Origin: an uncultured Clostridium sp.
Lineage (GTDB): Bacteria; Bacillota; Clostridia; TANB77; CAG-465
DNA length: 36,033 bases
Assembly (NCBI GenBank): GCA_948470565.1
Contig: CAOKPF010000010.1
Coordinates: 1 to 36,033, forward strand
Reading direction: 5' to 3'
This document shows positions 10,679 to 17,048 of this stretch, in pieces. Each line of letters begins with the position of its first letter. Positions within the stretch are counted from its first letter, which is position 1. A model generated the notes under the pieces. It searched no databases, was not told the origin of the DNA, and saw only the letters and a program-made list of their open reading frames with translations. The position numbers and the translations under genes are program-made.

Positions 10679-10710
10679 ATTCTATAAAAAATTACTAGAA
10701 TTTACTTTTT
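10672..10710. terminator. Bidirectional terminator overlapping two stop codons
   Basis: AAAGTAAATTCTA (10672-10684) pairs perfectly with TAGAATTTACTTT (10696-10708) around an 11-base loop, with A- and T-runs outside. The stem contains the ytaF stop codon and reaches the edge of the stop codon of the convergent gene, so one hairpin serves both. Confidence 0.8.
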
Positions 10711-11392
10711 ATTTAACTGAAAATAAAAATTTTCCAACATCTTTTCTATCAATAACTGTACCATTATCAATTAATTCCTGTGATGGCATATCAAACTTAA
10801 ACTTGCATGTACTTACCTTGCCTGTACTTTCAACAATATTTAAATTAAATCCTATTTCAAATTGTATATCTGATATCCCTATATTTAATAACTTTAATAT
10901 TTTACCATCAAATGTTAATGCATCTAAATCAGTAGCAACATTTGCTGATTTTAACATTTCTATATTATCAACTTTTAATTCAACTAAATATTGCTCATCA
11001 CTAACTACAGGATTTAATTCTAATTTATCTAAGCCATCTACATTATGTTCATCTGCATTTTTTTGTGAAATTACAAAATTACCTTTAGTACTAGGTTGTT
11101 TAACATAAATATTGTCCAGATACATACTTTGTGCATCATTTTGTTTTTCAACTAAAATTGAAATTGTATTAGTCTGCGAAGCATCAAATTTTATTTGTGA
11201 AATACTAGTTATATTCTCCCCCTCACTATTATTTTCATTTACTTCAAGTCTTGATGTAACAACAACGTCATTTATCCTGTAATTTCCCTCATTTGTCTTT
11301 CCAATGGTTCTAAATAGATACCAACATATTCCAACTACTATTAATATAGATACTATTATTATTAAAAAAAATATTAGAATTTTTTTCTTCAT
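10709..11392 (-). CDS. Membrane-anchored extracytoplasmic protein of unknown function
   Basis: I do not recognise this 227-residue protein. It starts with MKKK and one strongly hydrophobic helix (about 4-28), with no lipobox cysteine in the right place, so it is probably anchored by its uncleaved N-terminus with the rest outside. The outer part is rich in Asn, Asp, Ile and Val and alternates polar and hydrophobic residues, which suggests a beta-rich fold. A weak GGGG stretch precedes the ATG. It converges on ytaF and shares its terminator. The base composition resembles that of the core genes. Confidence 0.65.
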   Translation of the reverse strand: MKKKILIFFLIIIVSILIVVGICWYLFRTIGKTNEGNYRINDVVVTSRLEVNENNSEGENITSISQIKFDASQTNTISILVEKQNDAQSMYLDNIYVKQPSTKGNFVISQKNADEHNVDGLDKLELNPVVSDEQYLVELKVDNIEMLKSANVATDLDALTFDGKILKLLNIGISDIQFEIGFNLNIVESTGKVSTCKFKFDMPSQELIDNGTVIDRKDVGKFLFSVK

Positions 11393-11667: not shown

Positions 11668-13620
11668 TTAGTGTTCTGATGTATCACCAAAAAGTTCGTC
11701 AAATTTCTTCTCCAATTCTTTTTGTAAATCATATTCAACATTATTAGTACTTTCTTTTTTTACTTCATTATTATTCAAATCAATTTTTATTTCATCTTTT
11801 TTATCATTAGCAATTTCAATATCAGGCATATTTTGCATTCTTTCTTTTGCAGCACTCATTCTTCTATCAAGGTGTGCCTTTACGTCCATTATTTTTACTG
11901 GTACATCTTCTGTTCTTGGCATTTCAGTAATATCATGTATTTCATACTTACTTACTTCATTTTTCATTGGATGATATTTAAAATACCAAGCTTTTTTAGC
12001 TTTAATTGGCTTTAAAGTTCTAACTAGTAAAATTTCATCATTTGGATCAAGTCTTTTTAACTCATCAATAGTCATAAGGTCTCTTCCTTGACGTTGCTCA
12101 CTAAATGATACACCCTGTTTTGCCCATTCATCTTTATCCTTACTTACTGATTTACTTTGAAATTTTATTGTTTTTTGCCCTAAACTCTTTTGAAAGTATT
12201 CACATGTTTTTATTGACTGACTTCCTAAAAAAATATGTGTGTCACAGTTACCAAGTATTGTTTCATATTGCTCTTTGTATAGTGATTCTAATTGATCTAA
12301 TGCCTGTACAACTATTGATATACTAATTCCCATACTTCTTGTTACACTTAATTTTTTATGAAAATCAGGTATTTGACCAATATTTGCAAACTCATCAAGT
12401 AAGAAATATACTTGATTTCTTAAAGTACCACCGTTTTTATCAGCTTGTAAAAATAATTTTTGTAACATCTGACTAAAAAACATGGTTGATATAAAGTCAT
12501 AGGTACTATCAGATGTAGAAGTAATTACATATATAGCCATTTTCTTTTTACCTAAATCATCAAAATTAAAATTATTTGATGTAGTAATTCTTTGCATTGC
12601 TGGTGTATCAAATAAGCTAATTTTTGATATTGTAGATATTATAATGCTTTGCATTGTTTTATCTGCTGATGTACTAAAGTTTTCATATTCCTTTCTTCCT
12701 GGATGTTCAGGTTTTAATTCATCAAGGAATAGCTTTTTAAATACTTTATCGTCAGCACCACCTGCTCTTATTATATTAAGACAACTTGATATATTTTGTT
12801 CGTCTTCTGGTAAAACTGAAATTACATAGTAAATACATGCTTTTAACAACATCTTAGCAGTATCGTCCCAAAATGGATCATTACTTCCTGTTGTTCCTTT
12901 TTTTGCACCTTGAACTATAGTTTCAGCTAAAACATCAACACTTTGATGGTCAACTATATGCATTAATGGATTATATCTATCACTAAATTCTGGATTAACT
13001 AAATTAAATGCTTTTATTTCGTAACCATGAGCTTTTAAAAAACCTGATGTTTCTCTATATAATTCACCCTTAGGATCTGTTATTACATATGAACCAAGCA
13101 TCTGTAAAATATTAGGCTTTATATAACATGCTGATTTACCAGCACCAGAACCACCGACAACTAAAACATTTTTATTTACTAATACTTTTTTTAAATGAGT
13201 TCCTAAATAATGATTTTTACTAAGTATAAACCCCTCTTTTTTATTTAATATTTCTCTACCATCTGATGTTTTTCTAAATTCTTCTCCACCTTTGCTCCAA
13301 TCACTTGAACCATTTTCAATTCCCTGATATTCGTAAGAGTTACTAAACTTAAGCTCCCAAAACAAAAACATTACAAAAAAAGCAATAAGGGTATACCATG
13401 AAAATGTAAGAAATTGATTAGTATTTACAAATATTGCTCTTAAAAAGCTAAAATTAGTTATATTATTAAAAATTGCACCAATAGCATCAATTCCCGTTGC
13501 AGTTCCCTCTTCTGGATTTAGCCCTATAATTAAAGCCCCAACTATAATTACATCAAATAGTAAAAATCCAACTATAAAGGGAAGTGCATCTTTTTTTAGC
13601 TTTGCTAATTTATCTCTCAT
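11668..13620 (-). CDS. VirD4/TraG-type coupling ATPase (T4CP), orphan
   Basis: VirD4/TraG proteins are inner-membrane hexameric ATPases that hand DNA or proteins to a type IV secretion channel. This 650-residue copy has two N-terminal membrane helices (about 15-35 and 68-88), Walker A GGSGAGKS at 156-163, TDPKGELY after it and Walker B FLLDEFANIG at 406-415. It ends in a charged, flexible tail of about 80 residues, and nothing in it looks broken. No relaxase, VirB4 ATPase or channel gene lies in this window. It is the last gene of a three-gene operon, 36 bases after its neighbour. It may be a conjugation relic or part of an unrecognised system. Confidence 0.88.
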   Translation of the reverse strand: MRDKLAKLKKDALPFIVGFLLFDVIIVGALIIGLNPEEGTATGIDAIGAIFNNITNFSFLRAIFVNTNQFLTFSWYTLIAFFVMFLFWELKFSNSYEYQGIENGSSDWSKGGEEFRKTSDGREILNKKEGFILSKNHYLGTHLKKVLVNKNVLVVGGSGAGKSACYIKPNILQMLGSYVITDPKGELYRETSGFLKAHGYEIKAFNLVNPEFSDRYNPLMHIVDHQSVDVLAETIVQGAKKGTTGSNDPFWDDTAKMLLKACIYYVISVLPEDEQNISSCLNIIRAGGADDKVFKKLFLDELKPEHPGRKEYENFSTSADKTMQSIIISTISKISLFDTPAMQRITTSNNFNFDDLGKKKMAIYVITSTSDSTYDFISTMFFSQMLQKLFLQADKNGGTLRNQVYFLLDEFANIGQIPDFHKKLSVTRSMGISISIVVQALDQLESLYKEQYETILGNCDTHIFLGSQSIKTCEYFQKSLGQKTIKFQSKSVSKDKDEWAKQGVSFSEQRQGRDLMTIDELKRLDPNDEILLVRTLKPIKAKKAWYFKYHPMKNEVSKYEIHDITEMPRTEDVPVKIMDVKAHLDRRMSAAKERMQNMPDIEIANDKKDEIKIDLNNNEVKKESTNNVEYDLQKELEKKFDELFGDTSEH

Positions 13621-13656
13621 AAAATAATTCCACCTCTTAATACAAAAACAAGGAAA

Positions 13657-13950
13657 TTACCACCTTAGTGGTTCATTTCCGCGTTCTTCTAAATCATCTT
13701 TTTCCTCTTCTTTTTCTGCATTATTTTCCAAATAATCTGATATTGCCTTATTTTGCATTTCTATATTCTTTGATAGTTCATCAAAATCATTATGTTTAAC
13801 ATTATCTCCCTTTTCAATATCATCTGCTACTCTTTGCTTAGCCTTTCTATTAACTGGAATGTCAACAGGAGAAAACAACTCTAAATTTTTTCCATCTTTT
13901 AAAACACAACCTCTTACACTTACAATTATTTTTCTATCGTTTATTTCCAT
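13657..13950 (-). CDS. Small charged protein in the coupling-ATPase operon
   Basis: This 97-residue protein is not recognised. The first 35 residues look like a small beta structure (IIVSVRGCVLKDGKNLELFSP is the hydrophobic part). The remainder is strongly charged and probably helical, with runs of Glu, Lys and Asp and a likely coiled coil around 60-85. The start is taken as ATG 13950, about eight bases after AGGAGGAG; a TTG six bases upstream is also possible. It lies between the 174-residue gene and the coupling ATPase, with short gaps on both sides, so the three are probably one transcript. An adaptor or regulator of the ATPase is a reasonable guess. Confidence 0.7.
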   Translation of the reverse strand: MEINDRKIIVSVRGCVLKDGKNLELFSPVDIPVNRKAKQRVADDIEKGDNVKHNDFDELSKNIEMQNKAISDYLENNAEKEEEKDDLEERGNEPLRW

Positions 13951-13980
13951 AGACAAAACTCCTCCTTAGCCCAAACGTGT

Positions 13981-14505
13981 CTATTCTTCTTCAAAACCTA
14001 GCTCTAAAACAATATATGGCTTATGTGGCAACAATTTGCATTTTCCTTTTAACTGACCTGTGGTTTCATCTGTATATATTGTAGGTCTAACTTCCTCACC
14101 ACTTTGAGTATCAATAATCGCAAAGTGCCTTTTCATACTAGGTGTATATTCTACTTCTTTATACTCAATTCCTTCTTGATTATATATTGTACCATAACTA
14201 AGTGGTACATTAGATTCTGTTGCAACAAAACCATTCTCATCAAGTTCTCCTGTACTTATTATGGCTTTTGAATTAGTTAGTGTAAGAAGTACAATTAGTT
14301 GTTTACTTTCACCATTTTTTAAAACATTAAACACTTTCTTTATTCTACCGTTTTCCTCAGTATCTATACATTCAATTTTCTGAAGACTTAAAAGCGCATT
14401 TCCTTTACTATATGCTTCCTCATTCTTCTCAACCACAAATGCAATTGTATTCATTCCTGGCATATCTACAATTTCAAATCTGTTCATTTGTAATAAAGGT
14501 TCCAT
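13981..14505 (-). CDS. First gene of the coupling-ATPase operon, unknown function
   Basis: The 174-residue soluble protein has no signal peptide or membrane helix. It alternates beta-type stretches (IVLLTLTNSKAIISTG, then YIVLELGFEEE at the end) with acidic segments and matches no family I know. The ATG follows AGAGGTAG at a good distance, and a consensus promoter lies 40-68 bp upstream. It is followed 30 bp later by the small charged protein and then the VirD4-like ATPase, which suggests a joint role. The compact, acidic, beta-rich character would fit a cytosolic partner protein, but this is inference only. Confidence 0.7.
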   Translation of the reverse strand: MEPLLQMNRFEIVDMPGMNTIAFVVEKNEEAYSKGNALLSLQKIECIDTEENGRIKKVFNVLKNGESKQLIVLLTLTNSKAIISTGELDENGFVATESNVPLSYGTIYNQEGIEYKEVEYTPSMKRHFAIIDTQSGEEVRPTIYTDETTGQLKGKCKLLPHKPYIVLELGFEEE

Positions 14506-14544
14506 AATTCTACCTCTTTCTTAGGTTATTACCTAGCTATCCAT

Positions 14545-14573
14545 ATTATACAATATTATCTTTTATATTGCAA
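14545..14573 (-). promoter_or_regulatory. Promoter of the coupling-ATPase operon
   Basis: TTGCAA (14568-14573), a 17-bp spacer and TATAAT (14545-14550) on the minus strand lie just before the first gene. A small dyad, TAGGT/ACCTA (14522-14535), sits between the start point and the ribosome-binding site and could be regulatory. Confidence 0.65.
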
Positions 14574-14950: not shown

Positions 14951-15618
14951 TTAATTTTCATCTATAAAATATAAATTAAAATTCGTATATCGTTTCAAAG
15001 AATTATTTCCTTGTTTTATAAAATTCCATGTTTCTTCGTATTCTTTATTTATTGCAAATTCTCCATTAGTAATAAATTCTACAAAGTCTATGGGTTTATT
15101 ATAAAATTTATCTTCAAATTCTTGTGCTAATCTATTTTTTTCTTCTCTAGTAGCATTCTGAACATTATGTAATACATGTTCAAGATTGGTAGAAAAAAAG
15201 AAAACTTTATATGGAATTCCATTAATTACTCTTGTCGAACTTAATTTATTTAGAATTCCAGCTTTACAACTATTCCTATTTATAATAGCTTGAACATATT
15301 TAGTCTTAATACAATACGAGCAATACTGTAATTCTTCATTATTATGATATACTATATTTTCATGATCAATGTATGTTCCATCTAAATCTACAATATGAAT
15401 AATTTGTACAATGTCACTCTTCTTAAAATATTTTTTATTTCATCATTAATTTTTTTTAATATATTTGTAGTATTACTTGAAAAATCAGATGTAATATCAG
15501 CATTTACTAGATGAAAATATATTTTTTTATCATCACTTATTTTCTTTAAAATCCTTGATAACGAAGTTTCTTCAGTTGCTCCCTCTACAATAAATAATAT
15601 AACTTTCTTAGATGACAT
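14951..15618 (-). pseudogene. TOPRIM-like partner of the AAA ATPase, frameshifted
   Basis: The frame starts at ATG 15618, overlapping the ATPase stop by 11 bases, and reads MSSKKVILFIVEGATEETSL. VEGATEE resembles the first acidic motif of TOPRIM/RloB-type nucleases. After about 65 residues the frame shifts near 15415-15425. The next frame continues HIVDLDGTYIDHENI, with the second acidic motif DLD, and runs to 14951, for about 221 residues in all. Restoring one lost A in an AAGAAG stretch joins the two halves. Known two-gene systems of this layout (AbiL-like and OLD-like ATPase-nuclease pairs) act in phage defence. The nuclease half therefore looks inactivated, unless the shift is programmed or a sequencing error. 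Confidence 0.65.
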
Positions 15619-16996
15619 TATATTTTTCACCTGCCAATCTAAATGCTCTACGTATTTCATCGTTATCAGTTTCGTTATATAATTCTTCCTTTTGACCACC
15701 TAAATTAATACTTCTTATATATAAAGATCTTAAGTTATTATTATTTTTTACATTATTAAATCTAATATATCTGTTTTTTAAATTTGTAGTTGTAAAATAT
15801 AGTGCATCTTTATTCAATAATTCTAAAGGTCTTAAATTATGAGAAGTAAATATCAATTGACCCTTTCCACCTTTTTCTATTACAGATAAAATTTCACCAA
15901 GCAAAAATTCATATATTCCTGAATCCAATTCATCAACAACCATACAAATTGATCTATTGTTATACATAGCTATTAATGCACTTAGTATAGATATTATTTT
16001 TTTAATACCCTCTGATTCGTATTTAATTGGAAATTTAAAATCTTTCTTTATTGATAAAAGTTCTACCTTAAGTGTTTCTTTTCCATGTTCATTAATTTGT
16101 TTTCCATAATTACACAATTCTACTTTAAGCTCAGGGACAATTTTATTTAAAACAATATTCATTTGTTTAACTACTTTAGTTATAATAGAATATACAGATT
16201 TATCAATACACGTTGGACCATTTAACCCTATTGCAATATCTCCTGATGCAATACTTTCATTTTCTTCTATTCTAAAACTAAATGGCATAAGATAATCTAG
16301 ACTTATAATCCCAGAATACTCATTTTTTATGACAAAAAAATTACATCTTGAAAAATATGTTAGTACATCAATTATTGTCAGTATTTCTTTATCCTTTAAT
16401 GATTTTCTTAAAATTTCTTTAACATCTTCATTAAATATAAAAGACTTATTTTTTTCAACTGCTAACTTTTGTGCAACTTTTATATTTACTAGATTTTCTT
16501 TGTCTTGTAATATAATTTCATTAAATTTAGATTTAGGTGTTAAAAACTCCTCCATATTATTACTATCATAACTTATTGAAGGAACTTTATTAGTCCATTT
16601 TTCTTTTTTAATGGAATATGATATTACTTCTTTACTTATTTTTGCATCTTTTTCAGAAACTTTTTCTAATTCAATTTTATAATTTACTAGGAATTTATTT
16701 TTATTGGTTTCAATATAAAAATCAATACTTATAGATGATGTTCTAGAAAATGTATTTATATAGTTAACTGCATCATTAGGAAGACTAAAGCCACTCATAA
16801 TTTTTTTTACAAAATCACAAGCATTAACTAAAGCTGTTTTTCCTGAACCATTTTGACCATATATTCCAAGAATTTCTCCTCCAGGGTTATAATTTTTTTC
16901 ATCTTTAGGATTACTCTTAAACTCTACAATTCCATTTTCAACATTTTTAAAATTCTGCAATTCTATTTTTTGAATTCTAACAATTGAATTGTTCAT
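15608..16996 (-). CDS. ABC-type AAA ATPase of a two-gene defence-like module
   Basis: The 462-residue protein carries IxLQNFKNVxxG-type SMC/RecF start residues and Walker A GIYGQNGSGKT at 44-54. It also has an ABC-like signature SEGIKK at about 328-333, Walker B ICMVVDELDS at about 350-359, and a switch histidine in TSHN at about 384. This is the AAA15/AAA21 architecture of OLD, RloA and AbiLi ATPases, which hold a nuclease partner in check and release it during infection. The start is ATG 16996 with GGAGG seven bases before it; an upstream ATG at 17020 lies on the transcription start. The TOPRIM-like partner follows with an 11-base overlap. Confidence 0.8.
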   Translation of the reverse strand: MNNSIVRIQKIELQNFKNVENGIVEFKSNPKDEKNYNPGGEILGIYGQNGSGKTALVNACDFVKKIMSGFSLPNDAVNYINTFSRTSSISIDFYIETNKNKFLVNYKIELEKVSEKDAKISKEVISYSIKKEKWTNKVPSISYDSNNMEEFLTPKSKFNEIILQDKENLVNIKVAQKLAVEKNKSFIFNEDVKEILRKSLKDKEILTIIDVLTYFSRCNFFVIKNEYSGIISLDYLMPFSFRIEENESIASGDIAIGLNGPTCIDKSVYSIITKVVKQMNIVLNKIVPELKVELCNYGKQINEHGKETLKVELLSIKKDFKFPIKYESEGIKKIISILSALIAMYNNRSICMVVDELDSGIYEFLLGEILSVIEKGGKGQLIFTSHNLRPLELLNKDALYFTTTNLKNRYIRFNNVKNNNNLRSLYIRSINLGGQKEELYNETDNDEIRRAFRLAGEKYNVI

Positions 16997-17018
16997 GATA
17001 ATTCCTCCATTTATTGTC

Positions 17019-17048
17019 ATTATACCATATAATGATTACATCTGTCAA
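17019..17048 (-). promoter_or_regulatory. Consensus promoter of the ATPase/TOPRIM module
   Basis: TTGACA (17043-17048), an 18-bp spacer and TATAAT (17019-17024) on the minus strand are perfect sigma-A hexamers. Such strength suggests that the unit is held down by a regulator rather than being weakly transcribed. Confidence 0.8.

Follow-up and report, generated by a model that had tools for sequence, protein, structure and literature searches.

A VirD4-type ATPase unit conserved in an order of uncultured Clostridia, a candidate coupling module for a type IV secretion channel encoded elsewhere

Dispersed, relaxase-less type IV secretion systems (T4SSs) encoded on the chromosome are a known kind of machinery; those closest to the case described here are found in Patescibacteria, where chromosomal, lineage-wide systems of MPF_FATA type combine a monoderm VirB4/VirB6/VirB2 set with a VirD4-type coupling protein usually encoded far from virB4, mostly lack a relaxase, and in some cases have loci near the replication origin (PMC12102498). 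The window analysed here, 36,033 nucleotides (nt) that make up the whole of contig C10 in the 126-contig, 2.1-Mb draft genome of an uncultured Clostridium sp. of the order TANB77, carries a unit of three genes, hereafter the trio, which on balance represents the coupling-ATPase module of a chromosomal T4SS that is inherited vertically, lacks a relaxase, has its VirB4 channel encoded elsewhere and most likely serves protein export. It differs from the patescibacterial systems in belonging to an order of Clostridia, in having VirB4 split into two genes, in the association of VirD4 with an order-specific partner of 174 amino acids (aa) and in a frameshift within the Walker A codons of many species. 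That frameshift, present in relatives and not in the window, is the newest element of the picture. The features of the trio are as follows.

11668..13620, minus strand: VirD4/TraG-type coupling ATPase of the CD1115 family, 650 aa, with two N-terminal hydrophobic segments (profile matches and frame)
13132..13155, minus strand: Walker A codons GGT GGT TCT GGT GCT GGT AAA TCA, unshifted in the window copy; position of the extra C in relatives (sequence)
13657..13950, minus strand: middle gene, 97 aa from ATG, reaching 13956 if an upstream TTG is used (intact frame)
13981..14505, minus strand: 174-aa all-beta soluble protein, an order-specific marker of the unit (frame, profile and predicted model)
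14545..14573, minus strand: promoter-like TTGCAA-17-TATAAT, with the first start codon 40 nt downstream (consensus match only)

The three genes are intact, with 30 and 36 nt between them. The ATPase matches Pfam T4SS-DNA_transf with 270.6 bits (cut-off 20.1), as well as TraG-D_C and TrwB_AAD_bind, and the NCBIfam family conju_CD1115 (NF045973) with 431.7 bits (cut-off 250); its Walker A (GGSGAGKS, 13155-13132) and Walker B (FLLDEFANIG) motifs are intact and conserved in relatives. By profile membership and Walker motifs it is a full VirD4/TraG-type coupling protein, and its N-terminal helices would anchor it in the membrane. An earlier sequence-only reading of this DNA had already described three intact genes, a full-length ATPase with Walker motifs and two unfamiliar companions, and frames, profiles and motifs agree with it; neither the 97-aa nor the 174-aa protein has a family match in Pfam or NCBIfam. 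In sequence family and domain layout the ATPase resembles the CD1115 proteins (NF045973) of Tn1549-like elements; in contrast to them, it lies outside any mobile element, has no neighbouring VirB4 or relaxase gene and is vertically inherited. Its sole sequence relative in the Protein Data Bank (PDB) at E <= 0.001 is Cag5 of Helicobacter. Cag5 is the VirD4 of a protein-exporting system; as a pointer to a protein-export role for the ATPase this relationship is suggestive only. For the 174-aa protein no sequence relative was found in the PDB; its AlphaFold model is all-beta (mean pLDDT 78) and bears a weak resemblance to an Ig-like sandwich. Fold matches for this model were sought and rejected, Foldseek returning none at E <= 0.001 and VIA-align a best Z of 6.5, too low to be meaningful.

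The distribution of the unit was followed in 57 genomes of the order. In 53 of them the VirD4 orthologue is accompanied by the 174-aa protein, and the remaining four (G026, G031, G043 and G052) have neither orthologue; the absence from relatives that would have spoken against the earlier reading was thus not seen. A profile of the 174-aa protein detects 16 of 18 sampled order genomes as against 1 of 373 other Clostridia. In five families the VirD4 and 174-aa genes form one unit, while the adjoining housekeeping genes differ by family (dnaJ and sbcCD-like genes in f5; recN in f2; dnaX and gyrA or ftsH in f1). A frame of 62-202 aa sits between the two genes in most relatives inspected, and BLAST reveals no sequence conservation of this middle gene among relatives. 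The ratio of nonsynonymous to synonymous substitution rates (dN/dS) of the ATPase domain, taken after the Walker motif, is 0.04-0.18 and indicates purifying selection, which together with the conservation in relatives bears out the suggestion that selection keeps the operon. The patchy distribution of a mobile element is not observed, given 53/57 genomes inside the order, 1/373 outside it for the 174-aa marker, and housekeeping neighbours. The trio is not a stranded remnant; it is a core, vertically inherited unit in this order of Clostridia. A separate observation concerns the single genome detected outside the order, G688 (L200:6664-9123), in which the sequence related to this protein is part of a TIR and Sel1-repeat protein, a few kilobases (kb) from a different VirD4-like gene.

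The VirB4 profile matches all 57 genomes of the order. The genome to which the window belongs has two VirB4-type loci outside it, neither of them with a VirD4 gene, so that the label "orphan" once given to the ATPase is true within its contig only. The first of these loci, on contig C11, encodes two pilin-type proteins (TrbC/VirB2-type or T4SS_pilin), a PrgI-like protein, a split VirB4 (NF045971, 223 bits), a VirB6-like protein, two further membrane-anchored proteins and a wall hydrolase of 1708 aa with M23, 3D, NlpC/P60 and Hydrolase_2 domains; judged by this gene content, it is a complete monoderm-type type IV channel, here called class 1. The chromosomal VirB4, VirB6-like, VirB3/PrgI-like and VirB2-like genes that characterise the Patescibacteria-type systems are found on contig C11 and in homologous loci of 12 other genomes. 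In all 12 of the other class-1 loci fetched, the PrgI-, VirB4N-, VirB4- and VirB6-like homologues recur, the VirB4 with 62-82% identity, and the layout is common to these loci in part or whole. VirB4 of class 1 is split into a gene for the N-terminal domain and a gene for the ATPase in every locus fetched (L105 and its homologues). At E <= 1e-120, 15 of 18 order genomes have a class-1 VirB4 orthologue, as against 0 of 373 others.

The 13 class-1 and 4 class-2 loci gave no match to VirD4, the 174-aa protein or the PF03432 relaxase; with a VirD4 match in 0/17 VirB4 loci, the coupling protein is encoded apart from virB4 throughout this set. A conjugation locus that lost the trio by rearrangement does not fit this picture, as the trio lies apart from the channel in all five sampled families. 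Of the three roles once proposed for the ATPase, namely service to a distant secretion channel, mobilisation of elements in trans, or a separate system, the first is the best supported; a search through the genome found two VirB4 loci and a VirB6-like gene, and no PF03432 relaxase. The ATPase would recruit substrates and pass them to a VirB4-energised channel encoded at another chromosomal locus, with which it would pair physically. The 174-aa protein would most likely be a dedicated adaptor or accessory subunit, given its constant co-occurrence with VirD4, and the cargo, in view of the lack of a conserved relaxase, would most likely be protein, possibly delivered to the cell surface or to a neighbouring cell. 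Throughout this order of uncultured Clostridia a T4SS would thus be core chromosome equipment; because its substrate receptor and its channel are encoded apart, ordinary locus-based annotation would call the ATPase an orphan and miss the system.

The second VirB4-type locus, called class 2, is of a different make.

L106:9380-15752 (contig C17:13380-19755 of the same genome): class-2 cassette, encoding VirB4, a ParA/TadZ-like protein, T2SSE (TadA/VirB11-like) and T2SSF

This cassette, a possible T4SS/Tad hybrid, adjoins gyrA in two of the relatives fetched (L117 and L119). Its presence in the same genome as the trio raises the alternative that the trio partners the class-2 cassette and that VirD4 serves a hybrid T4SS/Tad machine and not a classical VirB channel. 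Among the matches listed, class 2 occurs in nearly all relatives, including trio-positive ones without class 1, and class 1 in fewer (an approximate count from frame lengths and scores); in G048, moreover, the class-2 cassette has VirB2-, VirB6- and small PrgI-like genes at a distance of a few kb. The alternative is nevertheless unlikely: class 2 is kept in all four trio-less genomes, trio and class 1 are missing together from G052, and the cassette has a VirB11-type ATPase of its own, Tad-type machines needing no VirD4. Class 1 is favoured as the partner since it is a complete channel without its own coupling protein; class 2, or both, may serve instead.

Several observations weigh against the proposed pairing of the trio with a class-1 channel. 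Class-1 VirB4 is present without a VirD4 orthologue in G043, G031 and G026, and some trio-positive genomes (e.g. G005, G008, G011, G047 and G048) have class-2 VirB4 only, among the matches listed. The wider spread of class 2 makes it a candidate for the partner, PF03432 (MOBP-type) was the sole relaxase family searched, and the 57 genomes are mostly draft assemblies of uncultured organisms. The occurrence of the trio ATPase without a class-1 channel in several genomes (again among the matches listed) also suits the view that it no longer takes part in secretion and acts, for example, as an envelope motor handling DNA or protein, as does the report that 'Ca. S. epibionticum' can do without its distant coupling protein while other T4SS genes are essential (PMC12102498). 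Against this view, which is very improbable, the same genomes hold channel loci without VirD4, the ATPase retains the full VirD4 architecture with a transmembrane N-terminus, and class-1 VirB4, like the trio, belongs to this order alone.

The ATPase family to which the trio belongs, CD1115, is named for conjugation, and some relatives carry VirD4, VirB4 and relaxase genes resembling those of integrative and conjugative elements (ICEs). The trio ATPase could on this ground be a coupling protein for DNA mobilisation, acting in trans on integrated elements or with an unrecognised relaxase. This is improbable, and mobilisation in trans is unlikely as its main role, because a PF03432 relaxase has no match in the genome of the window and occurs sporadically, in 18 of 57 relatives; furthermore, the trio is inherited vertically among housekeeping genes, and the ICEs of these genomes can supply their own VirD4. 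The only other VirD4-like gene in the genome of the window lies on contig C61, in an ICE-like remnant (L084) where its C-terminus is in another frame.

Protein searches returned the VirD4 gene split in two pieces in 13 relatives, and all 13 are broken at the identical position with identical bases: where unshifted genes read GGN GGN TCN, the shifted site reads GT[T/A] GGA C GG[A/T] TC. The same shift is seen in six further contigs (L098-L102 and L104), and orthologues with the extra C include L073-L079 and L052-L057. Of 385 order genomes, at least 206 contain a 24-base shift pattern, once in each and twice in one, whereas the reversed-pattern control gives 0 there; the pattern itself occurs in 0 of 373 other Clostridia. 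The zero frame of shifted genes ends five codons past the site, so that only the membrane segment and half of the Walker motif would be made without a shift; reading GGA, skipping the C and continuing with GGA or GGT exactly restores GGSG(A/S)GKS, and the peptide across the site would read NVLVVGGSGAGK. The codon reached in the zero frame, CGG, is the rarest arginine codon, with 1 in 36,378 codons in shifted f3 genomes, 6 in 30,113 in shifted f1 genomes and 42 in 14,146 in f2. In a scaffold search that catches 49 of 54 known tRNAs, tRNA-Arg(CCG) was found in 0 of 13 shifted genomes screened, and genuine genes for it were confined to three genomes of f2 and an unshifted one of f1. CGG scarcity and the undetected tRNA are what a slow or undecodable A-site codon calls for. 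It is quite likely, judging from these sequence patterns, that programmed +1 frameshifting at GGA_CGG_A is needed to make the ATPase in at least 206 species, with a near-unassigned CGG as the stall signal and one gene giving both a membrane-only fragment and the full ATPase; ATPase synthesis would be tied in this way to how the ribosome handles a near-unused codon.

Other explanations of the break were considered and rejected. Pseudogenes are ruled out by the identical site in 206 genomes, the empty reversed control and a dN/dS below 0.2 after the site; the break holds one fixed position across many species, and selection acts on both frames. A separate second protein started at TTG (TTG GAC GG) is not general and would also lose a Walker A glycine; re-initiation fails because GTA, in 10 of 40 distinct sites, places TAG directly before GAC in the second frame. 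The site has no homopolymer for transcript slippage, and an assembly error is countered by the recurrence of the insertion over many independent assemblies.

No report of VirD4 frameshifting, and nothing on TANB77, was found in the literature searched. The nearest likeness is to glass-sponge mitochondria, whose +1 shifts at CGG_A (and UGG_A) arise from a base inserted 5' of GGA and were interpreted like that of yeast Ty3 at GCG_AGU_U: the insertion yields an extremely rare CGG, reading goes on with the following +1-frame codon instead, and little or no slippage by re-pairing is possible (PMC5009743). Lineages with a comparably rare CGG and no tRNA to decode it are documented (PMC8629427). Unlike the sponge and Ty3 sites, the present one lies in a bacterial chromosomal gene, at a single fixed ATP-binding-motif position of one protein, in 206 species and with repeated gain or loss. 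In the ATPase tree the shift trait changes at least 7 times, and the window gene, itself unshifted, groups with its closest relative, the shifted G015 gene (81% identity, support 88); from this grouping, the shift was probably lost recently in the window lineage or gained in the G015 gene. In unshifted alleles (e.g. L058, L059, L103 and the window at 13156-13158) the rare valine codon GTC often stands directly before the Walker A glycines, giving GTCGGTGG or GTCGGAGG; it is absent from shifted alleles and is perhaps a trace of shift gain or loss. If the proposed shift is true, the relatives hold a sense-codon frameshift driven by tRNA scarcity in a bacterial cellular gene, linking the ATP-binding motif of a secretion motor to the decoding of a near-unused codon and controlling that motor. 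It would be a naturally replicated and testable case of bacterial sense-codon +1 frameshifting, and a caution, as hundreds of shifted genes may be annotated as broken.

Around the trio, the window holds core genes (queA-like and ftsH), and in its vicinity no gene for a relaxase, VirB4 or a channel was recognised, in line with the surroundings first described. Upstream, on the minus strand (14951-17020), an AAA_21 ATPase gene precedes an OLD/RloB-like TOPRIM gene whose frame is broken, and the two look like a defence pair in decay; the statement that nearby mobile genes are decayed holds in part, for this broken upstream frame. As to the good promoter ascribed to the operon, the site before the first gene does score 10/12 against a sigma-70-like consensus, whereas such sites are not above chance in the AT-rich stretch (38 vs 31.5 +/- 5.7 in shuffles). 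Downstream of the trio lies a fourth conserved gene, which accompanies it in many genomes of the genus.

10709..11392, minus strand: fourth conserved gene, 227 aa, with a single membrane helix at the N-terminus and an extracytoplasmic domain rich in beta structure

Several families also encode, near the trio, large proteins whose N-termini resemble those of type IV prepilins (GI(T/S)LI/VALxxTI...) (L052:10159-11544, L070:13046-14863 and L060:10948-12171).
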